Assembly: GCA_017513195.1 (NCBI GenBank)
Contig: JAFXGM010000005.1
Coordinates: 1-64,000 of the forward strand
Origin: Clostridia bacterium
Lineage (GTDB): Bacteria > Bacillota > Clostridia > Oscillospirales > Acutalibacteraceae
Length of the DNA stretch: 64,000 nucleotides
Reading direction: 5' to 3'
How positions within the stretch are numbered: position 1 is the first letter of the stretch; each line of letters opens with the position of its first letter. This document shows, piece after piece, positions 224 through 14,760 of the stretch. Below the pieces are notes generated by a model that searched no databases, had not been told where the DNA came from, and saw only the letters and a program-made list of their open reading frames with translations. Both the position numbers and the translations under genes were made by a program.

Positions 224-260
224 AAAAACGCTTGACTGAAAATTCAGTCAAGCGTTTTTT
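223..260. terminator. terminator with CTTGACTGAA palindrome
   Basis: An 18-bp perfect inverted repeat (arms 223-240 and 243-260) ends in six T residues on the plus strand and six on the minus strand. It overlaps the stop codon of the ECF S-component gene and ends that minus-strand operon. The inner arms CTTGACTGAA/TTCAGTCAAG recur in the hairpin at 51300-51331. Confidence 0.8.
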
Positions 261-777
261 ATTTTGCATATTTGTTTGTAAGTTTTAAAATTTTAACCGC
301 AGGCAAAATAAACAGTGTTCCTAAAATAAGGTTGCTGGTACCGTGAGTAATATCAGCGGGTATTCCTTTAATAAGCCACGGAATCATACGGCTAAAATCG
401 CCGTCAAAAAACAGCAGCACCTGACTTGGTGCATAGAGCAGACCAAACATATAACCGTGAAGTGCACAAACAGCAATGTATAATACATTTTTCGCCTTTT
501 GCGGCAAGCGTTGTGGTATTAGCATAACAAACAGCCATAGAAAATCCCACACGTATATGTAGCCTACCCACCACAAATTAAAGCCAGAAAGTAATCCTTG
601 CATAAGCACATAAACGTATATAGCCAGTATTGCCCACTTGCGATAAACGACTGTGGTCACAACAATTAAAACACCAACCAAATGGATGTTTGGAAGCATT
701 TCAAGCAATACATCACCTGCAAACATCAACGCGCCCATAAGGCTTAAAACAGCAACGTCTTTGAGTTTTAGCTTCAT
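259..777 (-). CDS. ECF transporter S component, probably corrinoid-related
   Basis: A 172-residue integral membrane protein with about five to six hydrophobic helices and a basic C-terminus, the size and shape of energy-coupling-factor substrate-binding (S) subunits. S components sit in the cytoplasmic membrane, bind a vitamin or its precursor, and dock on shared EcfA/A'/T proteins, none of which are in this window. It lies 1 nt after the DUF4430 lipoprotein gene, and both are downstream of a cobalamin riboswitch, which points to cobalamin or a corrinoid as cargo (CblT/CbrT-like). The family call rests on length, hydropathy and context; the substrate is inferred from the riboswitch. Confidence 0.65.
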   Translation of the reverse strand: MKLKLKDVAVLSLMGALMFAGDVLLEMLPNIHLVGVLIVVTTVVYRKWAILAIYVYVLMQGLLSGFNLWWVGYIYVWDFLWLFVMLIPQRLPQKAKNVLYIAVCALHGYMFGLLYAPSQVLLFFDGDFSRMIPWLIKGIPADITHGTSNLILGTLFILPAVKILKLTNKYAK

Positions 778-778
778 T

Positions 779-1207
779 TTATTCGGCCTTGAACGAATAG
801 GTTGCTCCCTCTACTATTTCGGTCGCATCAACACCTGTCATACCATATTCGCCATTTACGTAAAATGCCCAATACTTGCCGTCGGTATCATAGTCAAGCG
901 TAAGGCCGTTTACCGTTTTTACATATAGTCCGTATTGAGCGTTATCGCCTGAGATAAGGCCTTCATCTAAAAGAGCCTCGCCTACAGTGGCTTTTTCTGT
1001 AGTGATTTCAAAGCTTGTTTCCTTGCCTTCGGTATCAACTACAACAAAGGTAAAGTTTTTTTGTGCCTTTGGTGATTCGGTCACATCCGATGATACACCC
1101 GCTGATGTGATTGTGTTATCGTTACATCCTGCAAGTAGTGCCATAGCCGCAATAAGCACAATGCAAAAAGCAAACGACAACAATTTGGTAAATTGTGTCT
1201 TTTTCAT
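779..1207 (-). CDS. DUF4430 lipoprotein, candidate surface corrinoid-binding protein
   Basis: Starts with a lipoprotein signal ending in the lipobox LAGC, followed by a short Ser/Thr-rich linker and one DUF4430 domain (about residues 50-142) with the typical YWAFYVNGEY and TVGEALLDEG segments. DUF4430 resembles the small beta domain of intrinsic factor and transcobalamin, which touches cobalamin. I place the start at the ATG at 1207, because the AGGAG ribosome site is 10 nt upstream of it but only 1 nt from the ATG at 1216. It is the first gene behind the cobalamin riboswitch and probably hands a corrinoid to the ECF S component downstream. The ligand is inferred, not seen. Confidence 0.7.
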   Translation of the reverse strand: MKKTQFTKLLSFAFCIVLIAAMALLAGCNDNTITSAGVSSDVTESPKAQKNFTFVVVDTEGKETSFEITTEKATVGEALLDEGLISGDNAQYGLYVKTVNGLTLDYDTDGKYWAFYVNGEYGMTGVDATEIVEGATYSFKAE

Positions 1208-1264
1208 AATTTGCATTCTCCTAAAAAATATTTTATTTTCTCCTTTTAAGTCGGCGCTCGCAAC

Positions 1265-2057: not shown

Positions 2058-3512
2058 TTATTCTATATCTTCCTCTGTTTCTTCATCCTCGTCATCATTA
2101 TCACGTTTTGGAGAAACTATTTTTACAATTATCAACACACCAATTACAACCAATATTAACGCGATGAATATTATCAAGAAAAATACCATCTTACCGGTTT
2201 TTGTCATACTGTCAAACCAAGATTTTTCGTCTGAAGTAGTAGTTTGCTGGCTATCTGCCGGTTGATCTACAATTGCGCCACTTTTAGCTGCTACAAAATC
2301 TGTTGCGCGCTGCATAGTGCCTTCTATAGTATCATAACGATAGTATTCATTTTCGGTTTTTCCTGCAACGTAGCAGTTAAAAATACAAAAATCGCCAAGT
2401 GCTTCATTCTTATACTTGATGGTATCAACAGTTTGACCGTCTAGCGTAAAATCTGCTCTTACAAAGCCGGACGGTAACGCGCTGCCGCCGTCGATGCTTT
2501 CAACAATATACATAACGTCATTTGCAACTATGTATGCAAGGCGTTTGAAATTATCGTTTTCATCACGCTTATACCAAGCGCCGTTTTCACCGTTTTGGTC
2601 AACCAACCAGCAAAGCTGGTATTTGCCCGATACGTCGTTCAAAACGGTTATTTCGCTTTCTTTGCGTGTAGCAGTGCCCTGTGTAAAGCCGGTTGGAATA
2701 GTTATGTCCTTTAAGTCGTTAACGATTGTATAATCTGCGCCATCAATTACAACAAGAAGCGGATTTGAATTTCTTGCATCTTCTTCAGCTGCAAGGGTTT
2801 CTTCCTCGGTCATACGTTTTATATTTATAATATATGACTTCTTTGTGCCGTCTTCGGCGGTTACGGTAAGAACGCACTCGTTGTTTCCAACCTGTAAGCC
2901 GACCGTGCCGCCGCCCGCTACTCGTGACTTACCGTCGGCAACAGAACCTGTAACGTTAATTTCATCAACGTCATATTTAACAGTAACGTTATAGTTAGTT
3001 GTATTTGCGTTAAACGCAGGAGACAAAGAACCGTTGCTTAATTTTATTGATGCCAAATTCGCGTTTGAAGATGGCTTTGGTGTAACAACCTTTACGTTAG
3101 CAGAGGTAGAAGCCTGTGACGTTGCCTCGCCACCACCAAGTACAGATGCAGATATTGTAGAGTTACCAGCTGCTATAGCTGTAAAGTTTAATGTGTACGA
3201 GCTTGTCTTTGATGGTTTTGTATTAGTAAAAGCATCATCTACAAGCTTGATTTTTCCGTTGTTGTTGGTAAACTCTGCACCCGAACCACTGTTAAACTTC
3301 AATACGCTCGGATTATAGCTTACATCCGCCTCAACCGCATAAAGTGTTGCATCCGCATTAAAACGAATGGTAACGTTAAAAGTTTTACCCACTTCGTATT
3401 CACCTGTGCCGCTTATTGTAGCGCTTGCCGCAGATACATTAAACGCAAAACACGAAACGGCAAAAACGATTACGATAAACAATGACAATAATGATTTCAT
3501 AGTTTTTTTCAT
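2058..3512 (-). CDS. membrane-anchored cohesin-domain protein
   Basis: A 484-residue surface protein. It has a signal peptide (residues 1-28), a cohesin-type beta sandwich (about 30-143, with the hallmark VEADVSYNPSVLKF and a later YTLNFTAIAAG strand), a cadherin-like beta-sandwich domain (about 150-232, motif YNVTVKYDVDEINV), an unrecognised 200-residue region, a transmembrane helix near 440-466 and an acidic cytosolic tail. Cohesins bind dockerins. The gene 11 nt upstream encodes a glucosaminidase with a C-terminal dockerin, so this protein is probably its membrane receptor. GAGGTAAG precedes the ATG. The domain call is firm by pattern; the pairing with the neighbour is inference. Confidence 0.8.
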   Translation of the reverse strand: MKKTMKSLLSLFIVIVFAVSCFAFNVSAASATISGTGEYEVGKTFNVTIRFNADATLYAVEADVSYNPSVLKFNSGSGAEFTNNNGKIKLVDDAFTNTKPSKTSSYTLNFTAIAAGNSTISASVLGGGEATSQASTSANVKVVTPKPSSNANLASIKLSNGSLSPAFNANTTNYNVTVKYDVDEINVTGSVADGKSRVAGGGTVGLQVGNNECVLTVTAEDGTKKSYIINIKRMTEEETLAAEEDARNSNPLLVVIDGADYTIVNDLKDITIPTGFTQGTATRKESEITVLNDVSGKYQLCWLVDQNGENGAWYKRDENDNFKRLAYIVANDVMYIVESIDGGSALPSGFVRADFTLDGQTVDTIKYKNEALGDFCIFNCYVAGKTENEYYRYDTIEGTMQRATDFVAAKSGAIVDQPADSQQTTTSDEKSWFDSMTKTGKMVFFLIIFIALILVVIGVLIIVKIVSPKRDNDDEDEETEEDIE

Positions 3513-3523
3513 TTTATCTTACC

Positions 3524-5173
3524 TCAACTAATTGTTTTTACACCTAAAATGTGCATTTTTATAGCCGCTAGATCAACAGCATTAATTTTACCATCGCCGT
3601 TGATGTCACCGGCTTTTGATGAATTACCTTCTAATTTTTTAACGCCTAATATATCCATTTTAACAGCCGCCAAATCGATAGCGTTTATTTTGTCATCGCC
3701 ATTTGTATCGCCTTTTTTAACCACCGGCTCTGGTGGAGGCGTTGGTGTAGATGGTGTGCTTGGTGTTGACGGAGTGCTCGGCGTCGATGGAGTACTCGGT
3801 GTACTAGGGCTTGACGGTGTATCAGGTGTTTCGCTTGGATTATCACCGCCGGTCTCCCCTGCGGTACCGGGTAATGGACACGCCTTTTGCGGCATATCGG
3901 CAAATACAGGAACCGAGAATGTAATTACAGCGTCAGTGCTTGTAGTACATCCTTTTTTAAGGTATTTTGCATTGGTCCACGCATCGTATAGAGCAGATGC
4001 ATATTGGTGATTCCAAATCTCTTTTACAACGTTAAAATCCTTGTAATAATACGTATCCTGTCCTATGCTTATATAACCGTCGGCATATTTTTGGGCGCCG
4101 CCTATTATAGATGCAGTGCGGGAATTCCAAGCGTTATTTTTAGCATAAGTAAGACCGGATTTTGCAATTTCATCCTTGGTAGAACCGCTTGCCGCGAAAT
4201 TAAAGAAGTTGTAAAATCCCTCAAAACCGGGGTATTTACCCGAAACAAGATGGGTTTCACCCTTTGTACCCTGTTCTACTATAATGGTTGCCGCAAGCAC
4301 GTATGGGCTAACCTTACTTTCTTTTGCAGCGGCAATTAAATCCTCGATATATGCGTCTTTATCGACGGTGCCGTCGCCATTTTTATCATAACCGTTTTCT
4401 AAAAACGTTCCTTTAATAATGGTGCGCAGATTGTCCTGCATTTTTTCGTCTTCTTGATACGATTGCTGCATAAAGGCGAAAATCATATCTTCGTTAAGTG
4501 AATTGCGCGGGTCCATAAAATATTCTATAGCCTCGCGCGAAGCATAGGTCCATCTACTTTCAAGAGTAAGCCACTGATTTGTTTCGGCATTATAGCCTCG
4601 CATATCACGCCACTCGTTACCGCCGTAAGTAAACTCTACCCATTTGCGCGTATCGGTAACCTTTGCCACGCCATACTGTGCCTCAACCGCCGCCTTAAAG
4701 GTTAAATCAAATTTGTTTGCAACAAATTTCCAATTGGGGTATTTGGCGTGCAGTGCTCGCAGTGCATCGCGATAGCTTTCGGGGAAGTTTTCAAGGTTCT
4801 TTTCGAAATCCTCGTCAAACTCATATTCATATTTTAAAGCCACTTTATTAACTACGGCATAACCAGTATTTTCAAAGTTTTCACCATAATTGATTTTATA
4901 CCATTTGTCACCGTCGCCGTCGGTTTCTTCGCCTAAAACCTTTACCTTATCACCATTTTTCAGCGTTGTAAGGTGTTGAGATTTATTTTTATCCTCGGGT
5001 TTTGCCTCGTGACCTGTTGTACCTGCCATAGAGTATATCTTGGCTTCGCCGTTGGTACTGGAGATTTCACCAAGCATAGGATATGTAACCGCCCTTACAG
5101 GCATATTAAAAAATCCAATCAAAGCAATCATTATGCATAATATAAGACTTGTAGTTCTTTTTATATGTTGCAA
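3524..5173 (-). CDS. dockerin-bearing cell-wall N-acetylglucosaminidase
   Basis: A 549-residue secreted protein: signal peptide (1-28), SH3-like domain (about 33-115), glucosaminidase catalytic domain (about 200-400, with the candidate acid E300 in IIVEQGTKG and the YNFFNF motif), a Ser/Thr/Pro linker of SPT-type repeats (about 445-483) and a type I dockerin (486-549). The dockerin has two calcium loops, DTNGDDKINAIDL and DINGDGKINAVDL. The enzyme should cleave the GlcNAc-MurNAc bond in peptidoglycan. A further EF-hand-like DKNGDGTVDKD loop sits inside the catalytic domain at 263-273. The start codon is TTG with GGGGTG 10 nt upstream. First gene of a two-gene operon with the cohesin protein. 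Confidence 0.88.
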   Translation of the reverse strand: MQHIKRTTSLILCIMIALIGFFNMPVRAVTYPMLGEISSTNGEAKIYSMAGTTGHEAKPEDKNKSQHLTTLKNGDKVKVLGEETDGDGDKWYKINYGENFENTGYAVVNKVALKYEYEFDEDFEKNLENFPESYRDALRALHAKYPNWKFVANKFDLTFKAAVEAQYGVAKVTDTRKWVEFTYGGNEWRDMRGYNAETNQWLTLESRWTYASREAIEYFMDPRNSLNEDMIFAFMQQSYQEDEKMQDNLRTIIKGTFLENGYDKNGDGTVDKDAYIEDLIAAAKESKVSPYVLAATIIVEQGTKGETHLVSGKYPGFEGFYNFFNFAASGSTKDEIAKSGLTYAKNNAWNSRTASIIGGAQKYADGYISIGQDTYYYKDFNVVKEIWNHQYASALYDAWTNAKYLKKGCTTSTDAVITFSVPVFADMPQKACPLPGTAGETGGDNPSETPDTPSSPSTPSTPSTPSTPSTPSTPSTPTPPPEPVVKKGDTNGDDKINAIDLAAVKMDILGVKKLEGNSSKAGDINGDGKINAVDLAAIKMHILGVKTIS

Positions 5174-5222
5174 CTTTCTTTTTCACCCCAAACGGATACT
5201 AACCCATTTTATTATATTTTAT

Positions 5223-5251
5223 ATTATATTATTTATGTCGTATTATGTCAA
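5223..5251 (-). promoter_or_regulatory. consensus sigma-A promoter of the dockerin/cohesin operon
   Basis: Perfect TTGACA and TATAAT boxes on the minus strand with a 17-nt spacer, about 50 nt before the glucosaminidase start and directly after the terminator of the preceding operon. Confidence 0.85.
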
Positions 5252-5296: not shown

Positions 5297-5800
5297 CTAT
5301 TTTAATTTCTCTATTGCTTTGATTACTGCATCATTATCATTGGTTAACAACAGCATTACAAAATCGCCATCGGTTATAATTTTGGCGTCTTGCATTATCT
5401 TTTTAAAGTTAGGGTCGTATGCCGCCTGTGTACCGCCCTCAAGTGTTTTCTTACGTCTTTCAAAAAGTGACTCCAGCTTTGAGACGTCGTCTTTAGACTT
5501 TGCCTTTAGCACCGAAATTTCATAGGTTGTGTTATCGTTGCTGTAACAAATAGCGTAATCGTCAAGCAAATTAAACTCTTGGCACTCGTCAAACACACCG
5601 TCCGACCACATAGACATAATATTTGCATTAAAATCAGTTTTGCCTTTTATGTAATTTTTGGTATTATCATAAGATTCTACCACAGTGGCCGCATTTAAAA
5701 TTTGCTCACAGGTGGTATCAGACGTAAACTCTTTGCTTTCGTTACACGCTACACAAAAAAACAATGTCGCACAAACTAAAATTGTTATCAGCTTTCTCAT
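5297..5800 (-). CDS. DUF4358 lipoprotein
   Basis: A 167-residue protein with a lipoprotein signal (lipobox VACN) and a DUF4358 domain covering most of the rest. It has the characteristic helix SKLESLFERRKKTLEGG-like region and a C-terminal VMLLLTNDNDAVIKAIEKL strand-helix. No enzymatic motif is visible. In Clostridia this family is repeatedly encoded beside MBOAT and DHHW proteins, as here, where its ATG overlaps the end of the preceding gene by 4 nt. It is probably an extracytoplasmic accessory factor for envelope acylation; that role is inferred from context only. Confidence 0.75.
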   Translation of the reverse strand: MRKLITILVCATLFFCVACNESKEFTSDTTCEQILNAATVVESYDNTKNYIKGKTDFNANIMSMWSDGVFDECQEFNLLDDYAICYSNDNTTYEISVLKAKSKDDVSKLESLFERRKKTLEGGTQAAYDPNFKKIMQDAKIITDGDFVMLLLTNDNDAVIKAIEKLK

Positions 5801-6912
5801 TGGTCTATACCTCTTTTTAGATAAGAAATATTTTTTGTAGTGGCAAATTCACTCATACTTTCAAGGATTAGCACTTGACTTACGTTTTCACTAGCAACAA
5901 TTTGCTGAACGTTATCTGTAAAATATCGTAGATCTAGCATTATTAAATCGTAATGCATAGCCAAAAACGGTGCTATACTGTCGGCAAAGCTGTCGCGAAT
6001 TACTAAAAGCTTTGGCCTTCCCTCGCCTTTTTTTATATCAACACGGGCATGGTTGCCGCCAAGAAAAACTGCATATTGGTCGGTGTCCACGAGCCGTGAT
6101 GTGTCATACATTTGTATCTCTTTGCCATCGGCTGTGATGGTATAATCGTCATCACCGTCGTAACGAAGCAGAGTTATCACATCCTTTGGTGCTAAATAGA
6201 ATCCCGATGTACGCATTGAGGTACCACAAAAATTGCTCGATACCTTTTCCGCTTTAAAATATGACAACTCTTTTGGCGTATATGATAACACGTTGCCAAG
6301 CATACTATACGTATCATAAGCACCATAAATATTGTAGTGATGGTCGGTGTGGTAATAATTATTACCTTCACACAAATCATCATACAAATTAGGCGCTGTA
6401 AGATTATTTTGCTTTGCTTGAGTATAATAATCCTGCCACAACTTTTTATCATTTTCTGTAGGATAGGTATTTGGCAGATACTCTGCAAATATATCTACTG
6501 TGCGTGGAAGCACAGCCACACAAACCTTAGCGCCTGTTGCGTCACTAAATTCTTTTATTGTTTGTAAATTTTCGTTTAAACGATTATCTTTTATCTCGTC
6601 ACGCGCAATAAGTATATCATTTTCGGCATAGATAATACCGTTGTTTTCGCGCTTGCCAAGTACCAACTCGCTGTATGCTTTGGCCGAAACAAACTCATCA
6701 CGTGCAGGAAATTGGTCGCTTATATACATAGCAAGCTCGGCGGTATATTCGCCCGAAAAAAGTTGATCTATGCTAAAGCTTGGCGTTTGTGTGAGTGTGC
6801 GATTTTCTTTTTGTGACATAATTTTATCGGGTGTTACAAAAAACATAACCGCAAATATCACAATTACGAGTGAGCAAGAAACAATCGTTGCTATATTCAG
6901 TCTGTTTTTCAT
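5797..6912 (-). CDS. DHHW / AlgJ-AlgX-like SGNH protein (second copy)
   Basis: A 371-residue protein with an N-terminal membrane helix (about 8-28) and an extracytoplasmic SGNH-hydrolase-like fold. The family signature appears as TDHHYNIYGAY, with the late RDSFADS block carrying the Ser. An MSQKENRTLTQ-type segment after the helix is typical of DHHW proteins. AlgJ/AlgX-type proteins transfer or handle acetyl groups supplied by an MBOAT membrane acyltransferase, and the MBOAT gene is two genes upstream. It starts 1 nt after its paralogue and overlaps the DUF4358 gene. The acceptor polymer is unknown. Confidence 0.8.
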   Translation of the reverse strand: MKNRLNIATIVSCSLVIVIFAVMFFVTPDKIMSQKENRTLTQTPSFSIDQLFSGEYTAELAMYISDQFPARDEFVSAKAYSELVLGKRENNGIIYAENDILIARDEIKDNRLNENLQTIKEFSDATGAKVCVAVLPRTVDIFAEYLPNTYPTENDKKLWQDYYTQAKQNNLTAPNLYDDLCEGNNYYHTDHHYNIYGAYDTYSMLGNVLSYTPKELSYFKAEKVSSNFCGTSMRTSGFYLAPKDVITLLRYDGDDDYTITADGKEIQMYDTSRLVDTDQYAVFLGGNHARVDIKKGEGRPKLLVIRDSFADSIAPFLAMHYDLIMLDLRYFTDNVQQIVASENVSQVLILESMSEFATTKNISYLKRGIDQ

Positions 6913-6913
6913 A

Positions 6914-8428
6914 TTACCAGAAAAGATTCGTTAATCGAACGTCGGCGTTCATCATAACTTTAAGAAGATTGCGTTCGGACACTATGTATATTACGTAGTT
7001 TGGTTTGTTTTCTTTGATTGCACTTATTGCGTTTGAATAATCGTTTTCGGCAAGCCAGGTAACAGATGAAAATCTGTCGTTTACCATGTCGAAAGCTGTT
7101 CTGCCAAATGAATCGCGAACTATAACGGCGCTTGGTAGTCCAGAACCGTTTTTGTTAGTAAACTCATAGTATGATGCATTATCTTTTGTAAGATAAATGC
7201 TCTTTTTACCACGGGTTATTGTAGTCAAGGTATCGGTAGGCATTTTTAGATTGTACATGGTAGTAAGCTCCTTAATACCCGTTACACTTGTCTTACCGCT
7301 TGTAGATGCTGCCTGGCTATAATTTTCAAAGCCATTGTAGTCACCAAACGAGAATAGCGCATCACCGCCGTAAAGCTCGGTTGTATAAAAGCCCATTTCT
7401 TTCGCGGTGCGTGGCTTGGCACTTGGGTATTTGGGTGAGATTTTATTCATAAGGCTACTAACACCAAAATACGCGCCGTATGTAGTCCAGTGCGAGTCGC
7501 TGTGACTATATATTTTGTAACCCTCGCCATCGTTTTTGTGTGCATTTAGCTCATCAAGCGGGTAAAGCACCGTAGCGCCGCTTTGCTCGGCAATGCTTTT
7601 AAACGCTTTATAAAGTGTTTCACCCGATGCCGCTTTATATTCGCTTGGTACTGATTCGGGGTAAACAGCCGCCGAAGAAGGCACTACAAGATATATTACC
7701 TCGGCTCCAACCGATTTTGCCGTCTGTACAGTTTCAGATATATTTTGCTTTGCAAACTCTTTTTCGCCGTTTGATAAAAAGTTAGATTTGCTATAAGTTA
7801 AAATGGCACTATAAAAATGCATACGGCTATCTAGGCCGAAAACGGGTTGATAATCGCCTGATGTCATTTGATTCTTCATACCACTTTTAGTAGTTATGTA
7901 TCTTGATTCTGTTTTAGAAATATCTTTTCCCGTCTCTTTTGCACTTATGTCAACATAGGTGCTGTAATCTATTTGCACTTGGGCTGTAAAATAGCTTTTG
8001 TCTTTGCCCTTTGCGGGGGTTATTTTTTGTGTTTTTACACCGGCGCCATCAATTTGTATATACTCGGTAGCTTTAGAACAATTACCGCCTATTATATAAA
8101 TATTATTAGCAACCGGCGCAAACAAGGTAATTGTTGGCTGCGCACTAGCGTTGGGATTTTCTTCCTCGCTCGAAGTGTCCGGAACACTTGAAATAATGCT
8201 TGAATTATCGTCGGTTGAAGACGGATTACTGCTAGGAGTATCAACCGATGAATTATCAGCTTTATTATCGTCCTTTTCCGGTTTTGATGCAGTGCTTTGA
8301 TTATCGGTTTGGTCTATTATAACAGTATGAGTCTCGGTAGTAGATGATATATCACTGGTAACTTCGTTACAAGCACAAAGCGAAAGCATTAACGCAACCG
8401 CAATTAAAATGGACACTATTCTTTTCAT
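6914..8428 (-). CDS. DHHW / AlgX-like SGNH lipoprotein (first copy)
   Basis: A 504-residue lipoprotein (lipobox LCAC) with a Ser/Thr/Asp-rich linker of about 80 residues, then a small beta domain and an SGNH-like catalytic region. The region carries VVPSSAAVYPESVP, the signature DSHWTTYGAY and the RDSFGRTAF block. These Asp-His and Ser elements match the DHHW/AlgX family that O-acetylates exopolysaccharide or wall polymers outside the membrane. It differs from its downstream paralogue in being lipid-anchored with a long flexible linker. GGAGAAATTAAA precedes the ATG, and the MBOAT gene is 12 nt upstream. Confidence 0.8.
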   Translation of the reverse strand: MKRIVSILIAVALMLSLCACNEVTSDISSTTETHTVIIDQTDNQSTASKPEKDDNKADNSSVDTPSSNPSSTDDNSSIISSVPDTSSEEENPNASAQPTITLFAPVANNIYIIGGNCSKATEYIQIDGAGVKTQKITPAKGKDKSYFTAQVQIDYSTYVDISAKETGKDISKTESRYITTKSGMKNQMTSGDYQPVFGLDSRMHFYSAILTYSKSNFLSNGEKEFAKQNISETVQTAKSVGAEVIYLVVPSSAAVYPESVPSEYKAASGETLYKAFKSIAEQSGATVLYPLDELNAHKNDGEGYKIYSHSDSHWTTYGAYFGVSSLMNKISPKYPSAKPRTAKEMGFYTTELYGGDALFSFGDYNGFENYSQAASTSGKTSVTGIKELTTMYNLKMPTDTLTTITRGKKSIYLTKDNASYYEFTNKNGSGLPSAVIVRDSFGRTAFDMVNDRFSSVTWLAENDYSNAISAIKENKPNYVIYIVSERNLLKVMMNADVRLTNLFW

Positions 8429-8440
8429 TTTAATTTCTCC

Positions 8441-9847
8441 TTAAAATCTAAAATATAAAAACGGATTATATGACGAATCAACAAGATACGCAACGCACAG
8501 TAGCAGTACAAGCGGTAACACCGTGCACCATATTGTTGCAAAAATTGCATTGTCTTTTAGCTTGCAATACATTTTATACGGTAATTTTGTTGACGCAATT
8601 ATTAAAATACACAAGAACAAAATTCCTCGCATCAAATCATATATAGCAGTAGGTGAGACAAGCTGACCGCCAAACATAGCCGATAGATATTCGCCCGGGG
8701 TCTCAAGGTCGCACCAAATAAATATAAACCAGCCAAACAAAATTAAAGCTATGGCATAAATGTGAGAAATAAATCCCGGTAATTTATCAAGCAGCCCTCC
8801 CAAAAATGCCTTTTCTATTATTAAAATTACGGCAAAGTAAAGCCCCCATAACACAAAATTCCAGCTGGCACCGTGCCAAAGGCCTGTTAAAAACCATACG
8901 ATTAAAAGATTTAAAAAGGTTCTGCCTTTGCCCTTGCGGTTGCCGCCAAGCGGTATGTAAACGTATTCTCTAAACCACGTAGATAAGGTTATGTGCCACC
9001 TGCGCCAAAAGTCGGTAATACTTTTTGATATGTATGGGTAATTGAAATTTTCGGGGAATTTAAAGCCCATTATGCGCCCCAAACCTATTGCCATATCAGA
9101 ATAGCCCGAAAAATCAAAATAAATTTGAAACGCAAAGAATATGACGCCCATCCAAGAGCCCAATACGCTTGGAGTATCGTTTACACCCTGTGCAAAGCTT
9201 TCATAAAATGCACCTGCCGTATTTGCAAGTAAAACCTTTTTTGCAAGTCCGCACAAAAAACGTTTTATGCCGTCCGCCGCGTTTTGCAAGGTGTGCGAAC
9301 GCTCTCGCAAGGCGTCATCTACGTCACGGTAACGAACAATAGGACCCGCTATAAGCTGCGGAAACATTGTAACGTAGGAGCCAAACGTAGCAATATTTTT
9401 TTGCACCTTTGCTTCGCCTAAATACACGTCTAATGTGTAAGACATTGTCTGGAAGGTGTAAAATGAAATACCCACAGGAAGTGTTAAGCCTAGTGGTTTA
9501 ATACCCGAAAACATAGGTATTAACGACAGGTTTTCAATTATAAAGTCGGCATATTTAAAAAATGCTAATATACTAATGTTTATAACTATACTTGCAACAA
9601 GTGCCGCTTTCGCCTTTTTCGGAGCGACCTGCCCATACTTGCCAACCAGTCGTCCGCAGGTGTAATCTACCGCGATGGATAAAAACATTATCCATATATA
9701 TGACGGCTCGCTCCAGCCATAAAACAAAAGGCTTACTACCAAAAGCGCTAAATTTCTTGCCGCTAAAAATTTGGTGGGTATTAAAAAATAAATAAGGAGC
9801 ACCGCAGGCAGGTAAAAAAACAAAAACTCAAGTGACGAAAACACCAT
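8441..9847 (-). CDS. MBOAT family O-acyltransferase (AlgI/DltB/PatA-like)
   Basis: A 468-residue polytopic protein with about 11-12 membrane segments. It carries the MBOAT hallmarks: WRRWHITLSTWFREYVYIPLG, then LTGLWHGASWNFVLWGLYF with the presumed active-site His in LWHGA. MBOAT proteins of this branch move an acyl group, usually acetyl, from the cytosol across the membrane to an outer SGNH transferase. The two DHHW proteins downstream fit that partner role. First gene of a four-gene operon, with GGAGGACTGCAGT before the ATG. The polymer acylated (peptidoglycan, teichoic acid or exopolysaccharide) cannot be read from the sequence. Confidence 0.9.
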   Translation of the reverse strand: MVFSSLEFLFFYLPAVLLIYFLIPTKFLAARNLALLVVSLLFYGWSEPSYIWIMFLSIAVDYTCGRLVGKYGQVAPKKAKAALVASIVINISILAFFKYADFIIENLSLIPMFSGIKPLGLTLPVGISFYTFQTMSYTLDVYLGEAKVQKNIATFGSYVTMFPQLIAGPIVRYRDVDDALRERSHTLQNAADGIKRFLCGLAKKVLLANTAGAFYESFAQGVNDTPSVLGSWMGVIFFAFQIYFDFSGYSDMAIGLGRIMGFKFPENFNYPYISKSITDFWRRWHITLSTWFREYVYIPLGGNRKGKGRTFLNLLIVWFLTGLWHGASWNFVLWGLYFAVILIIEKAFLGGLLDKLPGFISHIYAIALILFGWFIFIWCDLETPGEYLSAMFGGQLVSPTAIYDLMRGILFLCILIIASTKLPYKMYCKLKDNAIFATIWCTVLPLVLLLCVAYLVDSSYNPFLYFRF

Positions 9848-9886
9848 ACTGCAGTCCTCCTTTTACATTGTATTTTATATATAAGT

Positions 9887-9916
9887 ATAATACCCTTTTT
9901 ATCCAGACTTTGTCAA
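9887..9916 (-). promoter_or_regulatory. promoter of the MBOAT operon
   Basis: TTGACA (9911-9916) and TATTAT (9887-9892) on the minus strand, 18-nt spacer, about 40 nt before the MBOAT start. Confidence 0.7.
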
Positions 9917-9930
9917 GATAGAAAGGGTAT
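9890..9930. repeat. inverted repeat spanning the MBOAT promoter
   Basis: Arms 9890-9903 (ATACCCTTTTTATC) and 9917-9930 (GATAGAAAGGGTAT) are nearly perfect inverted repeats that bracket the -35 box. There is no T run beyond the right side, so an operator is more likely than a terminator for the adjacent AraC gene. Confidence 0.45.
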
Positions 9931-9946
9931 TGTAACAATATTGTAA

Positions 9947-10777
9947 TTATTCTATGTTCTGCTGCTTAAATGTCCTATATTCCCTAGGAGTTTTGCCCAC
10001 GATTTCAATAAACGTTCTTTGCAAAGTGCGTTCGTTGGCAAAACCGCATTCCTCAGCAACGTCAAATATCTTAAGCTCGGTTGTTGCTAGTAAATTTTTT
10101 GCTTTATCAATTCGTAATGAATTTACCAATTTTCTAAAATTAACGTTTGGCATTGAGGATATACATCTTGATAGATAGGTTTTATTATATCCCAATTCCT
10201 TTGCCGCCGTTGTCAAATCTATATTTTCGGTATAATGCTCGTTTATATAAAGCAATAACTTTGTAAGAGCATTGTGATTAAGACTTGTTATCTTTTTGGG
10301 AATACGTCTCATATATTCAGTAAAAACCGAATACACTATTGATTTGATAGTACAATATCTTTGCAAATCGGAGTCTATATTAGACTGCATGCTATGAGGT
10401 CCGGGAAAAACTTCTGTTACGTAATCAAAAAGCGCTTTTGAAGGTGTAAAAACTGATTTTGTGCCACTGATATATAAGTTTTCTCCCGATAAAAAATCCT
10501 CTGCAAAATCCATAGATATAACCAATTGCCACACTGTACAACTTTCCGGTGTGTGCCAACTATGCGTCCTAAAAGGGGTTATTACGCAAATATCACCCTT
10601 CTTTGCAACCTCTGTAATACCATCGACAGTAAGCTCAAAACTACCATCAATAATGCATAGTATTTCTGGCAATTGATGCATTCTTTCAGGATATTCGCTT
10701 TTTCCGTTAAAGTAGCGCGTTTTTGCAGCCGCGTTAAATCCAAAATTTTGAAAATTAATATACATATCATACCTCAC
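9947..10777 (-). CDS. AraC family transcriptional regulator
   Basis: A 276-residue regulator: an N-terminal cupin-like sensing domain (about 20-110, with MHQLPEILCIIDG and KKGDICVITPFRTHSW) and a C-terminal pair of helix-turn-helix motifs (about 175-272, including TAAKELGYNKTYLSRCIS and VAEECGFANERTLQRTF). Such proteins sense a small ligand, often a sugar, and activate nearby genes. It is divergent from the LamG-metallophosphatase gene and sits just upstream of the MBOAT promoter, so either is a possible target. The gene is visibly more AT-rich than the housekeeping operons nearby. Confidence 0.9.
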   Translation of the reverse strand: MRYDMYINFQNFGFNAAAKTRYFNGKSEYPERMHQLPEILCIIDGSFELTVDGITEVAKKGDICVITPFRTHSWHTPESCTVWQLVISMDFAEDFLSGENLYISGTKSVFTPSKALFDYVTEVFPGPHSMQSNIDSDLQRYCTIKSIVYSVFTEYMRRIPKKITSLNHNALTKLLLYINEHYTENIDLTTAAKELGYNKTYLSRCISSMPNVNFRKLVNSLRIDKAKNLLATTELKIFDVAEECGFANERTLQRTFIEIVGKTPREYRTFKQQNIE

Positions 10778-10809
10778 AAGAAATAGTGAACGTAAACTTT
10801 TGTCGCTTT

Positions 10810-10838
10810 ATTATACTCTTTATATCGTAAATTGTCAA
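10810..10838 (-). promoter_or_regulatory. consensus promoter of the AraC gene
   Basis: Perfect TTGACA (10833-10838) and TATAAT (10810-10815) on the minus strand with a 17-nt spacer, about 35 nt before the AraC start. No comparably good plus-strand promoter for the divergent gene is seen, which fits activator dependence. Confidence 0.85.
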
Positions 10839-10888
10839 CGGTTGTGTGTTATTATCGTAGTATATATAATATATGGAGGAGACTCAAT

Positions 10889-13507
10889 ATGAAAAAGAAA
10901 ATTTTTGCACTATTTTTAACCGCGGCTTTGCTGATTTCTATGCTGCCGATTATCGCAGTCAGCATAAATGCAGCCGCGCCAACATCGGACACAACCGGTA
11001 TGACGTTTGATGACACCGGTAAAAACGTTTGGAAGACTAATAAACTTCTAACAACCGCACCTCACACCTTTGAAACTTGGGTGAAAGTTGCAAAAGACGA
11101 AGTCGGTGCAGGTAGCGGCCGTGTAGGCGGTATTTTTAACAACTATCTTGGCGATACCAAATACAGTATCTGCTTTGATATATACAATGGTGGCCAACCA
11201 CGTTTGTTCTATGGCTATACCGATGCAAATGGTGTAGAGCAGCAGGTTAACTCATACTTTACCAAAGTAGATATACGAACCGGAGAATGGTTGCATCTTG
11301 CAGTTGTTCTTGATGAAGTAAATCTTAAACTTCATTGCTATATAAATGGCGAACTCAAACAAACCTTGACTGTTAAATCTGGATATGATACCGAAAAAGA
11401 CCTTAACAGAATATTCTCTCTCGGTATGGATAACCGCGAAACAAGTTATAAGTATCATTTCTATGGTAGTATTGCAAACTTCTCATGTTATGGTGATACT
11501 TTAAGCGCTGCCGATATTGCAAATATATACGCTAACGGCCCAATGCTTGACAATGAATCTATAGTTTGCGCATACGACACTTCTACACAACCAACCGGTA
11601 ATAAAATCGGAGATCTTACCGACAACAACTACAACCTTTATATCACAGATCCTAAAGTTTGCACTCCTTATGAAGTAGAAGGCGAAGAAGACGATAACAC
11701 AGGCAATACCGATAGTGAAGTTGACAACGCTGTTAAAAAAGATTGCGCTTATTCTTTTGCAGTAGTAGGCGACACTCAATACCTCGTTAGAAATGACGTT
11801 AACAACGGGACTAATAATACCGCTACACTTTACGATTGGATACTCGCAAACAAGGATGCCAAGAAAATACATTCTGTGTTTGGATTGGGCGATATCACCG
11901 ATAGTCGTACCGTTGCTGCAGAATGGCAACATGCAAAAGACAACATAACCAAGCTTGAGGGCAAATTACCCTATTATGTTGTTCGCGGCAACCACGACAA
12001 TAGCGATATGTTTAATGAATATTTTAATAATGATTCATATAAATCACAATTTGTAGATCCTGATATTGCAGATCAAACCAAAGTTTTCTTTAGCAAAAAG
12101 TGGATTAACAACGGTTATACCAAATTTACTGTAGGCGGTACAAAATATCTTCTTATGATGCTTGACTACGGCGCAAAAGAAGATGCGATTGCCTGGGCTA
12201 ATGATGTGATTGCTTCTAATCCTACATATAAAGTAATCATTAACACCCACGCTTATCTCGGAGCAGATGGCACATGGCTTGACGATGAGACATATTCACC
12301 CGACCCTGAAAGCAACACAATTTTTAGCAACGGTAAGGAAATGTGGGAAAACTTGGTAAGCAAGCACGAAAATATTTTCCTTGTACTTTGTGGTCACGAT
12401 AACAAAGTACCTAACAGTGATATTATTAAGCTTCAAAGCAAAGGCGAAAAAGGTAATACTGTTACACAACTTATGATAAATCCTCAAACCATCGAAGAAA
12501 ACGCGGCCAGCCAGCAATATGGTATGGTAGCTATGCTTTACTTTAACGAAGATGGCAGTGAGGTTGAGGTTGAGTACATTTCTACAGTTCTTTCAACCGA
12601 AGGAAACGACTACCTTTACAGAGATGTAAACCAATTCAAATTTACAGTTAATCCCGAGTCAGAAAATGATGACGACACCAACACTACTGCACCTACTATT
12701 GAAATTAGTGCAGATGGTTACTGGGTAATTAATGGTGTTAAGACCGAATATAAGGCTATTGGTAGCGATGGTAAAGATGGTGTTGATGGCGAGGATGGTA
12801 AAGACGGCGTAACACCTTCCATCGAAATCAGTGCTGATGGCTACTGGGTAATTAACGGCGTTAAGACCGAATATAAGGCTATCGGCTCTGACGGTAAAGA
12901 TGGTGTCGATGGCGAAGACGGTGAAGACGGCAAGGACGGCGTAACACCTACTATCGAAATTAGTGCTGACGGCTACTGGGTAATTAACGGCGTTAAGACC
13001 GAACATAAGGCTATCGGCTCTGACGGTAAAGATGGTGCCGATGGTAAAGATGGCGCCGATGGCAAAGATGGCGCCGATGGCAAAGATGGTGCTGATGGTA
13101 AAGATGGCGTAACACCTACTATCGAAATCAGCGAAGACGGTTACTGGGTAATCAACGACGTTAAAACCGAGTATAAAGCTATTGGTACTGACGGTAAAGA
13201 CGGAAAAGATGGCAAGGATGGTACCAATGGTAAAGATGGTGTCAACGGCAAAGATGGCGCAGATGGTAAAGATGGCATCGACGGTAAAGATGGTGTTACA
13301 CCTACAATTGAAGTTGATAAAGACGGATATTGGGTTATAAACGGTGTTAAAACCGAATATAAAGCGACCGCAACTGTAGATGCTACTAGCAGCGACGTTG
13401 ACAGTGATAATGTCAACACATTGCCTATCGCTTGCGCAGCAGTTTGCCTTGTAAGTTGTCTTGGTACAATAATTTTCTGTATCTGTTATAAGAAAAAAGT
13501 AAAATAA
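10889..13507 (+). CDS. secreted LamG + calcineurin-like phosphoesterase with collagen-like stalk
   Basis: 872 residues from the ATG at 10889, chosen because GGAGGA lies 8 nt upstream; an upstream in-frame ATG has no ribosome site. Order: signal peptide (1-30), LamG/concanavalin-like domain (about 45-210), metallophosphoesterase (about 285-555), a stalk of five homologous units rich in G-K-D-G triplets (about 600-830), a C-terminal membrane helix and the basic end YKKKVK. Phosphoesterase motifs are GDTQ (294-297), GLGDITD, GNHD (367-370), NTHAYL and GHDN, so metal ligands look intact. The protein probably projects a phosphodiesterase or phosphatase from the cell surface; substrate unknown. Divergent from an AraC gene. 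Confidence 0.85.
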   Translation: MKKKIFALFLTAALLISMLPIIAVSINAAAPTSDTTGMTFDDTGKNVWKTNKLLTTAPHTFETWVKVAKDEVGAGSGRVGGIFNNYLGDTKYSICFDIYNGGQPRLFYGYTDANGVEQQVNSYFTKVDIRTGEWLHLAVVLDEVNLKLHCYINGELKQTLTVKSGYDTEKDLNRIFSLGMDNRETSYKYHFYGSIANFSCYGDTLSAADIANIYANGPMLDNESIVCAYDTSTQPTGNKIGDLTDNNYNLYITDPKVCTPYEVEGEEDDNTGNTDSEVDNAVKKDCAYSFAVVGDTQYLVRNDVNNGTNNTATLYDWILANKDAKKIHSVFGLGDITDSRTVAAEWQHAKDNITKLEGKLPYYVVRGNHDNSDMFNEYFNNDSYKSQFVDPDIADQTKVFFSKKWINNGYTKFTVGGTKYLLMMLDYGAKEDAIAWANDVIASNPTYKVIINTHAYLGADGTWLDDETYSPDPESNTIFSNGKEMWENLVSKHENIFLVLCGHDNKVPNSDIIKLQSKGEKGNTVTQLMINPQTIEENAASQQYGMVAMLYFNEDGSEVEVEYISTVLSTEGNDYLYRDVNQFKFTVNPESENDDDTNTTAPTIEISADGYWVINGVKTEYKAIGSDGKDGVDGEDGKDGVTPSIEISADGYWVINGVKTEYKAIGSDGKDGVDGEDGEDGKDGVTPTIEISADGYWVINGVKTEHKAIGSDGKDGADGKDGADGKDGADGKDGADGKDGVTPTIEISEDGYWVINDVKTEYKAIGTDGKDGKDGKDGTNGKDGVNGKDGADGKDGIDGKDGVTPTIEVDKDGYWVINGVKTEYKATATVDATSSDVDSDNVNTLPIACAAVCLVSCLGTIIFCICYKKKVK
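12691..13370 (+). repeat. five coding repeats: ISADGYWVING unit plus collagen-like GKDG runs
   Basis: Within the phosphoesterase gene, a roughly 30-residue unit (PTIEISADGYWVINGVKTEY) recurs five times, near 12691, 12821, 12947, 13108 and 13291. Between units run Gly-X-Asp triplets of varying number: short after units 1 and 2, longest after units 3 and 4. The near-identical DNA makes this a likely site of unit gain and loss. Confidence 0.85.
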
Positions 13508-13527
13508 TAAATTAAACTGTAAATAAC

Positions 13528-13567
13528 AAAGCACCCTAAGTATCGCTTGATAGTTAGGGTGCTTTTT
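13528..13567. terminator. terminator between convergent genes
   Basis: AAAGCACCCTAA / TTAGGGTGCTTT with a 14-nt loop and a T run on the plus strand. It separates the phosphoesterase gene from the end of the minus-strand rimP-type operon. Confidence 0.8.
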
Positions 13568-13572
13568 ATATA

Positions 13573-14760
13573 TTATTTAATCTTTCTAGCCTCAATATAA
13601 AAACGCTTATCGTCGGCGTGCCCCATAGAAAATGTCTTTCTGGGAAGTGAGCCGTCAGCATTTACAGCTTCGAAAAGCTCGCTTTTTTGCATACCGTCAA
13701 AGATAAAGCCTATTGCATTTGGACGTGATGCTAATTTTTTAAGCGAATCCTCACCGTGAATATAGTCGATCTCTGCCTCGGGGTGATTTTTTACATATTC
13801 ATCAAGGAAGGCTTGCAACGTGCCAACTGCTAATTGGGCGGTTGGGTTTACACCAATTTCTTTTACGGTATCGCCATAGATACACGTGAATTTTTGCGTT
13901 CCCTCACCCAAGGTTTTAACAAGCTCGTCAAGCAATTCTTCTGGATTTATGCCAAACACAACGCGGTAAATCGGCTCAAACTGTAGCGCTGTATCGTGAA
14001 TATTTACAATCTCGGTAAGCGCATAGCGTGATGCTTCGGTTTTGTTTAGATTATAACATTCTTTTGCAGTAGCAAGTGAGTGATTGCCGTCACCTACACA
14101 GAACAAAAATCCGTCATTTTGCTGCTTTAGGTCCTCTAGCATCGATAAAACAGTCTCTTTTGCCGCTTCATCTAAAAGATAGCCTGTAATACTGCCTGCG
14201 TTGCACATAAAAGTAAAGTCATACGCTTTTTCAAATTTGTCTTTATTTGTAACAAGATAAGAAAAAATTTGGTCCTTTACGTCATCAAAAAGCAACATTA
14301 CGTGTGGCAGTTCAAGCGGTGCATTTTTACGAATTTCTACACGGGGTGGAATTCGTGACAGCACCGTCTGCTCGGTAGCACGGATTTCGGCAGTTGTGCC
14401 TGCGTGATAATCGTAGCTTTCAAGGTCTATTTTACCTACTATTCCTCGGCGGCATTTACCGTCAGACTGTATGCGCTCAACGAATATAAGACTATCGTTA
14501 TAAGCGGTAAAAATATCGCTATCTAGATATTCTTGCATATTCTTGTTTATTCTTTCTATTCTTTCGCTATTATCGGCTGAAAGATAAACCTCGGGCAAAA
14601 CAATATTTAAAGCCGACGGTTTATCGCCTGCAGCTGTCTTAACCTTTTCCCAATATTCAGGCTCCGAAGTGTATTGGTCGCAAGCAATAACTGCCCAATT
14701 TTCAAAACTGCTCTTGGGCAATAATATATCTGCCGGTGAAAAAGAATGGTTGTATTTCAT
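13573..14760 (-). CDS. DUF1015 family protein
   Basis: A 395-residue cytosolic protein matching the DUF1015 family over its whole length. Typical segments include the N-terminal SFENWAVIACDQYTSEPEYW, a central FCVGDGNHSLATAKECY, and the C-terminal KTFSMGHADDKRFYIEARK. The GDGNHS block is the strongest hallmark. No biochemical function is firmly established for the family, though it is often found near serine or cofactor genes. It lies 12 nt after a lipoprotein gene at the tail of the long rimP-ribF operon, but nothing in the sequence links it to translation. Confidence 0.8.
   Translation of the reverse strand: MKYNHSFSPADILLPKSSFENWAVIACDQYTSEPEYWEKVKTAAGDKPSALNIVLPEVYLSADNSERIERINKNMQEYLDSDIFTAYNDSLIFVERIQSDGKCRRGIVGKIDLESYDYHAGTTAEIRATEQTVLSRIPPRVEIRKNAPLELPHVMLLFDDVKDQIFSYLVTNKDKFEKAYDFTFMCNAGSITGYLLDEAAKETVLSMLEDLKQQNDGFLFCVGDGNHSLATAKECYNLNKTEASRYALTEIVNIHDTALQFEPIYRVVFGINPEELLDELVKTLGEGTQKFTCIYGDTVKEIGVNPTAQLAVGTLQAFLDEYVKNHPEAEIDYIHGEDSLKKLASRPNAIGFIFDGMQKSELFEAVNADGSLPRKTFSMGHADDKRFYIEARKIK

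Follow-up and report, generated by a model that had tools for sequence, protein, structure and literature searches.

In the accessible portions of the sources cited here, several systems are described that resemble the locus reported below. The glucosaminidase SagB of Staphylococcus aureus is membrane-associated, and SpdC is a CAAX-protease-like membrane protein (PMC10581084). Dockerin-bearing wall hydrolases have been reported for the cellulosome of Ruminococcus champanellensis, where they associate with scaffoldin (PMC6403190). In R. flavefaciens, an NlpC/P60-like protein carries a dockerin (PMC3573020), and the dockerin of a peptidase binds the cohesin of the ScaE anchor, which is common to other proteins (PMC5301203). 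Single-cohesin proteins with a C-terminal transmembrane helix have been listed as possible 'nonSLH-anchoring scaffoldins', the partners of which were called unclear for two species (PMC11557425). The accessible text of that paper does not contain glucosaminidase, and contains peptidoglycan once, in another context. Most work on cohesin-dockerin binding concerns plant fibre and starch. A non-cellulosomal, non-fibre use is found in Clostridium perfringens, in which glycosidases (NagJ and others) form enzyme-to-enzyme complexes through these domains.

The locus studied here lies in the window, the whole 64,000-nucleotide stretch of DNA that was analysed. It encodes a glucosaminidase with a dockerin and, directly downstream in the same operon, a membrane cohesin protein. 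Comparison with related loci indicates that the two probably form a private, non-covalent cohesin-dockerin membrane tether for a peptidoglycan glucosaminidase. The features are as follows.

3524-5173, (-) strand: hydrolase gene, 549 aa, TTG start; predicted secreted SH3 / SagB-like glucosaminidase with a C-terminal dockerin
4880..4984, (-) strand: SH3_3 domain, residues 64-98; 31.0 bits (cut-off 27) when the N-terminal part is scanned alone
3959..4588, (-) strand: SagB-like glucosaminidase region, residues 196-405
4274-4276, (-) strand: codon of the invariant Glu300, within the SagB-like region
3722..3856, (-) strand: Pro/Ser/Thr-rich linker, about residues 440-484
3545..3715, (-) strand: two-repeat type I dockerin, residues 487-543
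3513-3523: intergenic gap of 11 nt, from hydrolase stop to cohesin ATG
2058-3512, (-) strand: cohesin gene, 484 aa, ATG start; membrane cohesin protein
3081..3422, (-) strand: cohesin domain, PF00963
3339-3341, (-) strand: codon of Tyr58, the cohesin column covarying most with dockerin position 14
2814..3041, (-) strand: cadherin-like beta-sandwich domain, residues 158-233; 35.6 bits, cut-off 24.2
2253..2765, (-) strand: membrane-proximal region, conserved among partners, with a YRYDxxExTxQR consensus near its end in alignment A2
2118..2207, (-) strand: C-terminal transmembrane segment, about residues 436-465; an acidic tail comes after it

Both reading frames are intact, and a GAGGT motif resembling a ribosome-binding site, read from the sequence, overlaps the hydrolase stop codon. 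A sequence-only reading of this DNA had described a secreted glucosaminidase with a two-repeat type I dockerin, followed 11 nt later by a transmembrane cohesin protein. The first description is borne out by the gene position and the Pfam match to both dockerin repeats, and the second by the open reading frames, the PF00963 match and the C-terminal hydrophobic segment. The genes lie as placed in the span 2058..5251 given by that reading, although its end at 5251 takes in upstream non-coding DNA.

The glucosaminidase region has no Pfam match over cut-off in full-length or isolated-domain scans, and the NCBIfam SagB model scores 40.8 bits, far below its cut-off of 425. A profile built from 20 relatives finds PDB chain 6u0o_B as its best PDB match (E 4.9e-30), named 'LYZ2 domain-containing protein' in the PDB table; 6u0o is the SagB-SpdC entry. 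Glu300, which is invariant in 20/20 and 19/19 sequences of two alignments, aligns with the Glu of an LLETGA stretch in this chain, presumably the catalytic residue. The SH3_3 match reaches 26.7 bits (cut-off 27) when the whole hydrolase is scanned, and many relatives carry a cadherin-like domain around the position of the linker. By simple hydropathy, the hydrolase has a single hydrophobic segment, starting at residue 8; across the family, 62/67 hydrolases have an N-terminal TM-like segment and 0/67 have one beyond residue 80. The SagB-like catalytic domain, taken together with the membrane anchor, suggests that the glucosaminidase would act on the cell's own wall.

The dockerin (PF00404) scores 57.4 bits when scanned in isolation (cut-off 22.9) and covers profile positions 1-57 of 57, including both repeats. 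In both repeats, Asp occupies positions 1, 5 and 12 of the loop (Asp489, 493, 500 and 523, 527, 534), and these positions are invariant or at least 90% conserved in alignments. Positions 10, 11, 14, 15, 17 and 18, which we assume to be the recognition positions, read AIAAKM in repeat 1 and AVAAKM in repeat 2. Within a protein, the repeats carry the same residue at these positions in 57-99% of cases (68 proteins), versus 12-34% between proteins (z 10.8-15.5); the excess is not limited to the six, as it also appears at positions 9, 13, 20, 21 and 22 (z 6.2-12.6). Because the two faces are nearly equivalent, the enzyme could dock in two orientations. Contacts cited for a cohesin-dockerin complex involve the Ser/Thr motifs Ser11/Thr12 and Ser45/Thr46 of the dockerin and Asn37, Asp39, Gly123 and Ala125 of the cohesin (accessible part of PMC5772552).

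The cohesin domain of the partner scores 32.0 bits in isolation and 31.7 bits in a six-frame search (cut-off 24.1). The match appears real but modest, since Cohesin is not listed in the full-length hmmscan of the protein and is found at E <= 0.01 in only 12/25 family members scanned at full length. The profile of the anchor family has the NagJ chain 2o4e_A among its PDB matches (E 2.6e-5). The cadherin-like domain is matched in 24/25 members of alignment A3, the window protein included, and no Pfam model matches the membrane-proximal region. By simple hydropathy, hydrophobic segments of the cohesin protein start at residues 4 and 436. Among complete downstream partners, a C-terminal TM-like segment is present in 67/67, an N-terminal hydrophobic stretch in 63/67 and an LPxTG motif in 0/67. 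The sequence-only reading had the hydrolase held at the surface by its neighbour; the comparisons give good support to holding through the dockerin, but the C-terminal segments and the absence of LPxTG in these partners point to the outer face of the membrane as the site, rather than the cell surface.

The pairing recurs among relatives. Among 74 distinct glucosaminidase-dockerin ORFs, from loci fetched by their hydrolase match, a cohesin gene lies immediately downstream in 56, divergently upstream in 6 and upstream in 1; the rest have no cohesin neighbour (6), a weak cohesin-like neighbour (3) or a contig end (2). With all loci counted, the tally stands at 86 distinct cases (cohesin downstream in 68, divergent in 6, upstream in 1 and weak in 3, with 2 at contig edges and 6 lacking one); it is inflated by L104-L107 and L218-L257, which were fetched for a cohesin-protein match and are excluded from the 74; a bias remains in that alignment A1, which seeded the profile search of genome contigs, came mostly from paired genes. 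The downstream gap has a median of 11 nt, with 68/72 between -20 and 60 (all loci). Adjacent glucosaminidase-dockerin and cohesin genes occur in genomes of 23 genera (counted by group codes), besides named MAGs, and this recurrence shows that the pair is more than a chance arrangement. Flanking genes are rarely shared with the window: 12/160 loci, many of them short, have any match to 13 flank proteins, and the infB-DUF1015 cluster of the window is common to four to five close relatives. The arrangement is widespread and common among Clostridia of the gut, and wall hydrolases with dockerins had been reported earlier (accessible part of PMC6403190); the pair is not a peculiarity of this locus, and the earlier view of it as unusual needs changing.

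Variations on the arrangement are also seen. Six Ruminococcus-type loci have a divergent cohesin gene, with a domain-only Pfam match over cut-off in 5/6; in the remaining one (L138), the cohesin region of R. bicirculans is matched at 1.3e-37. In Ruminococcus bicirculans 80/3, the autolysin is the only detected dockerin protein and the cohesin protein is divergently adjacent (53.1 bits). A second protein of the cohesin-cadherin type is encoded elsewhere in this genome (21.6 bits, sub-threshold; family profile E 1.4e-45), and R. bicirculans is not strictly one-to-one. In genome G532, the cohesin match was flagged with two stops, but its ORF is open over 468 aa.

Comparative evidence supports the binding of the dockerin by the neighbour's cohesin and a joint change of the two. 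In partial Mantel tests on 63 pairs, with the hydrolase, the rest of the anchor protein and the other dockerin residues as controls, the recognition residues of the dockerin track the cohesin (0.271; 0/1000 permutations as high) but not the remainder of the anchor (0.018; 351/1000). Across 31 disjoint near-relative pairs, the partial r of the recognition residues is 0.65 with the cohesin (p = 0.0001) and -0.05 with the rest. The other dockerin residues follow the cohesin more weakly (partial Mantel 0.135, 9/1000; disjoint pairs partial r 0.32, p 0.085). The symmetry, partial Mantel, position-14 and disjoint-pair tests draw on pairs from all loci and share the bias of that set. The partial-distance tests are relied on because mutual information alone is not decisive: per dockerin position, its top values are no higher with the cohesin than with the hydrolase's own catalytic domain.

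The two top-scoring column pairs join position 14 of each dockerin repeat to the Tyr58 column of the cohesin; by comparison with the CipA sequence, Tyr58 presumably lies next to the residue matching Asn37. Ala14 occurs mostly with Tyr (11/16) and Leu14 always with Gly/Ala/Ser (26/26) in this column, a size swap that rests on few independent changes, as the class at position 14 changes only 4 times on the tree. An independent-switch test of position 14 against the cohesin column is not significant with 2 usable pairs. The same holds for dockerin against cohesin presence (median p 0.219, 6 usable pairs), computed without 3 weak cases and without 12 loci that are split or lie at an edge; an earlier positive version (median p 0.031) was rejected, as loci cut by contig ends had been scored as lacking genes.

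The system is not a cellulosome. A multi-cohesin scaffold over cut-off was not found in this genome (97.8% complete), and the earlier term 'minimal cellulosome' was an overstatement. The genome holds three cohesins over cut-off, on three different contigs and ORFs, the other two being on C23 and C5; a further, sub-threshold cohesin match falls in a frame on C12 that also holds a dockerin match. The check for competing dockerins that had been suggested turned up two other dockerin genes, encoding large proteins on C15 and C12, beside the two other cohesin genes, and the pairing in this genome may consequently not be exclusive. Roughly 1000 residues read of each of these dockerin proteins gave no other Pfam match; a possible GH16-like motif in them is likewise without a Pfam match in these stretches.

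In the proposed tether, the sequence shows a hydrolase with an N-terminal hydrophobic signal, no other membrane segment and a two-faced type I dockerin at its end. The anchor consists of a signal, one cohesin, a cadherin-like spacer, the membrane-proximal region and, at the C-terminus, one transmembrane helix. Calcium-dependent docking would hold the SagB-like enzyme near the membrane's outer face; there it may cut glycan strands in wall newly made by the same cell, and the SH3 domain may add wall binding.

The presence of other cohesins raises an alternative in which docking is promiscuous: the dockerin would bind one, two or all three of the genome's single-cohesin proteins, and adjacency would reflect only shared ancestry or co-transcription. 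The two other cohesins do outscore the neighbour in Pfam (55.6 and 49.9 vs 31.7 bits), and in L108, which lies nearest in the tree (66% identity over 298 catalytic columns), the hydrolase has a different dockerin and lacks a neighbouring cohesin gene; the L108 genome has 21 dockerin and 7 cohesin matches. This alternative is nevertheless unlikely, as the recognition residues track the neighbour's cohesin. Furthermore, in four genomes (G180, G072, G027 and G049) Dockerin_1 and Cohesin are each matched exactly once over cut-off, by the pair itself, and the family profile found no second cohesin-covering protein in them. The same-genus genome G066 has 32 dockerin matches; there, the code of the autolysin (GKAMKS/GKAIKM) is unlike all 18 other dockerins read, 16 of which have NKTRFQ in both repeats. 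Docking could also be the lesser part of an older or broader partnership, in which the anchor regulates or positions the enzyme through other domains, the candidates being the conserved membrane-proximal region and the cadherin-like domains, and the dockerin is optional reinforcement. This reading, which is compatible with the tether, is possible but not favoured. Among 39 dockerin-less hydrolases (9 of them cut by contig ends), 9 lie beside a cohesin-like membrane gene, and 8 of these 9 genomes (completeness not given) have no Dockerin_1 match, so that the hydrolase-anchor partnership can exist without a dockerin. In addition, relatives carry cadherin-like domains on both partners, and at L123 and L176 a dockerin hydrolase without a recognised cohesin neighbour is followed by a large signal-bearing protein with no Pfam-named cohesin. 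However, the dockerin-less pairs fall in three places of the tree near or inside dockerin-bearing pairs (3 changes), a pattern that fits later dockerin loss on a root placed by midpoint only, and no additional covariation links the recognition face to the remainder of the anchor.

Two further readings carry little weight beside the tether. That the domains are relics without binding function is suggested by the modest cohesin score, but is highly improbable given intact frames and a recognition face kept symmetrical across 68 proteins while changing with the cohesin. It is also quite improbable that the enzyme targets walls of other bacteria or host glycans rather than its own wall: a membrane anchor would put it under or within the wall of its own cell, and SagB, the best PDB match, acts on strands of its own cell (accessible part of PMC10581084), although a multi-enzyme 'lyticome' for bacterial lysis has been floated, following the report of dockerin-bearing wall hydrolases for the R. 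champanellensis cellulosome (accessible part of PMC6403190).

A pair that is conserved, encoded in one operon and dedicated to a wall glucosaminidase would be a case of the cohesin-dockerin bond in housekeeping, and might explain single-cohesin membrane proteins whose partners were called unclear. The 68 distinct pairs would also give protein engineering dozens of cohesin-dockerin partners that coevolved in nature and are apparently private. As a named isolate, Ruminococcus bicirculans 80/3 makes the idea testable outside uncultured genomes. A bolder and rather doubtful extension is that holding the cell's own wall hydrolase, rather than fibre digestion, was an original and widespread job of cohesins and dockerins in gut Clostridia, with a private lock and key per lineage (one glucosaminidase, one membrane anchor), and that cohesin-dockerin pools for fibre degradation arose beside it, sometimes capturing an autolysin by dockerin swap. 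L108 may be one such capture, and another may be L115, where a homologous autolysin has an NKTRFQ-type dockerin and no cohesin after it.

Among the closest known systems is SagB-SpdC, in which a dedicated partner likewise keeps a glucosaminidase of the same family (6u0o_B) at the membrane. In S. aureus SagB is scaffolded at the membrane by SpdC, whereas here a plug and socket would replace the direct membrane anchor. The enzyme is apparently secreted free and lies far under the NCBIfam SagB cut-off (40.8 vs 425), and the adjacent partner is not a polytopic SpdC-type protein but a single-pass cohesin protein, with one TM-like segment besides its signal. Cellulosomes and amylosomes share the same Pfam domains, the symmetrical two-repeat dockerin and a cohesin on an anchored protein; unlike them, this locus combines one cohesin and one wall-type hydrolase in one operon with a membrane anchor. 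In contrast to both Ruminococcus cases, the hydrolase has its own adjoining cohesin gene, and the operon-encoded membrane anchor sets it apart from the C. perfringens NagJ system. The 'nonSLH-anchoring scaffoldins', as described in the accessible part of PMC11557425, resemble the anchor in having one cohesin and a C-terminal TM helix.

The sequence-only reading had described a secreted glucosaminidase with a two-repeat dockerin, followed 11 nt on by a gene for a transmembrane cohesin protein, and the domain reading of both genes bears this out:

3524-5173, minus strand: secreted hydrolase of 549 residues with an N-terminal hydrophobic signal, SH3_3 and a SagB-like glucosaminidase region, ending after a Pro/Ser/Thr linker in a complete Dockerin_1 with two repeats
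2058-3512, minus strand: anchor protein of 484 residues in which a signal, a cohesin and a cadherin-like domain are followed by a conserved region that Pfam does not match, a single C-terminal transmembrane segment and an acidic tail

The catalytic domain of the hydrolase received no Pfam call. A profile from 20 hydrolase relatives matched PDB 6u0o_B (E 4.9e-30; LYZ2 domain-containing protein in the table), which we take to be SagB, as well as other autolysin structures and, lower in the list, many dockerins. The anchor-protein profile matched cellulosomal scaffoldin cohesins and the NagJ module in the PDB. The membrane-proximal region of the anchor (2253-2765, minus strand) is conserved among partners, matched no Pfam model and is a candidate new domain. 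Downstream of the pair (259-1216, minus strand), a DUF4430 gene adjoins one for a small hydrophobic protein that matches no Pfam model and resembles an ECF-type S component.

The pair is real and conserved. Among 200 family-level genomes, the hydrolase was matched in 53 (E <= 1e-10; some matches span the dockerin alone) and the anchor protein in 59 (E <= 1e-5; many span the cadherin-like part alone), while the anchor-protein alignment was matched at 1e-20 in 53 of 394 genomes across the order. At least 521 hydrolase relatives occur in named genomes, and the 80 retained are mostly MAGs labelled Clostridia, Bacillota, Oscillospiraceae, Ruminococcaceae or Lachnospiraceae, with the isolate Ruminococcus bicirculans 80/3 among them. 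The window and 160 loci from relatives were scanned with profiles built from the hydrolase and anchor alignments (A1 and A2), and neighbours were tallied in the 117 loci, window included, fetched by hydrolase match. These contain 74 distinct glucosaminidase-dockerin ORFs, with a cohesin ORF downstream in 56, a divergent cohesin upstream in 6, an upstream cohesin in 1, a weak cohesin-like neighbour in 3, a contig end in 2 and no cohesin neighbour in 6 (L086, L108, L115, L123, L170, L176). The median of 72 downstream gaps, all loci included, is 11 nt.

The surroundings of the pair vary. In the window, about 8 kb (5297-13534) separate a DUF1015 gene (13573-14760) from the hydrolase and encode MBOAT, DUF4358, a pair of ALGX/DHHW-type proteins and a phosphoesterase protein with collagen repeats, along with what looks by eye like an AraC-type regulator; this stretch has no counterpart in L068, L073/L114, L110 or L116, where DUF1015 lies less than 1 kb before the pair. 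In the Ruminococcus-type loci (L129, L138, L146, L152, L163, L183) the cohesin gene is divergent, 402-520 nt away, and its last hydrophobic stretch is preceded by NPxTG (L146, L152, L183) or by NPxTS or NPxTD (L129, L163, L138), perhaps a sortase-type signal rather than a plain membrane anchor. The same-genus genome G532 has an intact pair (L221) and a second cohesin-type anchor gene (L222:3326-4771, minus strand) that adjoins a ribF/truB/infB cluster; the 9 kb read there contain no hydrolase.

Four lines of comparative evidence indicate that the hydrolase dockerin probably binds the neighbouring cohesin. In a test of 30 genomes, the sole dockerin match sits in the hydrolase in nine (G180, G075, G178, G168, G049, G072, G027, G117, G022), and in five of these the sole cohesin match is the hydrolase's neighbour: G180 (99% complete), G027 (94%), G049 (87%), G072 (84%) and G117 (71%; cohesin match below cut-off). 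A family-profile search found no second cohesin-covering protein in G180, G072, G027 or G049. Furthermore, when repeats were compared in 68 distinct proteins, those of one dockerin agreed in 57-99% of cases at positions 10, 11, 14, 15, 17 and 18, compared to 12-34% for randomly paired proteins; positions 9, 13, 20, 21 and 22 likewise show excess within-protein agreement. At seven recognition positions, agreement is 80% within a protein vs 49% with its nearest relative; for seven other positions the values are 48% vs 42%. Such symmetry is what a dual-binding dockerin would be expected to show.

With hydrolase divergence removed, divergence of the recognition face tracks that of the cohesin (0.271 with three controls, 0/1000 as high; across 31 disjoint pairs, partial r 0.65). 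The remainder of the anchor protein shows no such relation to the recognition face (0.018; in disjoint pairs, -0.05). Other dockerin residues also track the cohesin, more weakly (0.135, 9/1000; 0.32, p 0.085). The dockerin codes, read as the letters at the six recognition positions of repeat 1/repeat 2, form the fourth line. The same-genus genome G066 has 32 dockerin matches, and its autolysin reads GKAMKS/GKAIKM; 18 other dockerins were read, of which 16 have NKTRFQ in both repeats, the exceptions being L259 (an NKTRFQ variant) and L262 (AAAMKR). The homologous autolysin of L115 ends in an NKDLTRLFQ-type dockerin with no cohesin after it, its 5' side lying off the contig. The tree places L108 nearest; its autolysin has a different type of dockerin, neither flank showed a cohesin in 17.5 kb, and the locus lacks the DUF1015 gene located ahead of the pair in L068, L073/L114, L110 and L116.

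Evidence against a simple pairing comes from the 39 dockerin-less hydrolases among the 117 hydrolase-fetched loci, nine of which have a cohesin-like neighbour, in each case a membrane protein (nine others are cut by contig ends). A Dockerin_1 match is absent from eight of those nine genomes (completeness not given). Since these hydrolases keep a cohesin-like neighbour, either the anchor has another use or those cohesins have drifted. Dockerin-less pairs fall in three places of an unrooted tree, near or inside dockerin-bearing pairs, which suggests that they may have arisen by dockerin loss; strict independent-switch tests were not significant. The sequence-only reading, which had the hydrolase held by its neighbour, called for a search for competing dockerins, and others exist: the window's genome has two further dockerin genes and two other cohesin proteins. 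Those two dockerins are asymmetric or partly matched, unlike that of the hydrolase, and cross-binding among the cohesins and dockerins of this genome may occur.

Dockerin proteins other than glucosaminidases also adjoin cohesin genes. Another thirteen dockerin ORFs, in loci mostly fetched by cohesin match, lack a glucosaminidase match and have a cohesin ORF after them. Four of these dockerin ORFs are short (109-294 aa), and the one in L229 appears to be the end of a split glucosaminidase gene. Among seven scanned for domains, a phage-type lysozyme domain (L246:912-3377, plus strand) and a VgrG3-like C-terminal domain (L247:4149-6623, minus strand) occur in proteins preceding a cohesin gene, and an Amidase_3 domain (L257:3052-4686, plus strand) in one whose cohesin gene follows after 390 nt. 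Of the remaining four, two contain leucine-rich or repeat domains, and the others show just the dockerin.

Dockerin-bearing wall hydrolases have been noted with regard to the R. champanellensis cellulosome, and a 'lyticome' floated, in a review (PMC6403190). A survey of cellulosome genomes describes single-cohesin proteins with a C-terminal transmembrane helix, the partners of two being called unclear (PMC11557425). No description of this operon was found in listings and excerpts of open-licence full texts; one may be published elsewhere.

The pair most likely serves to tether a wall glucosaminidase to the membrane through a cohesin-dockerin bond dedicated to it. The hydrolase would be exported and its dockerin would fold with calcium, as expected from the families; the neighbour's cohesin would catch it at the outer face of the membrane, a docking that is supported by comparison only. 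Newly made glycan strands would be within reach of the SagB-like glucosaminidase there, and its family suggests that it would trim them. SagB of S. aureus is scaffolded for this purpose by SpdC, a membrane protein (PMC10581084). The hydrolase of the window would likewise be held by a membrane partner, in its case the cohesin protein.
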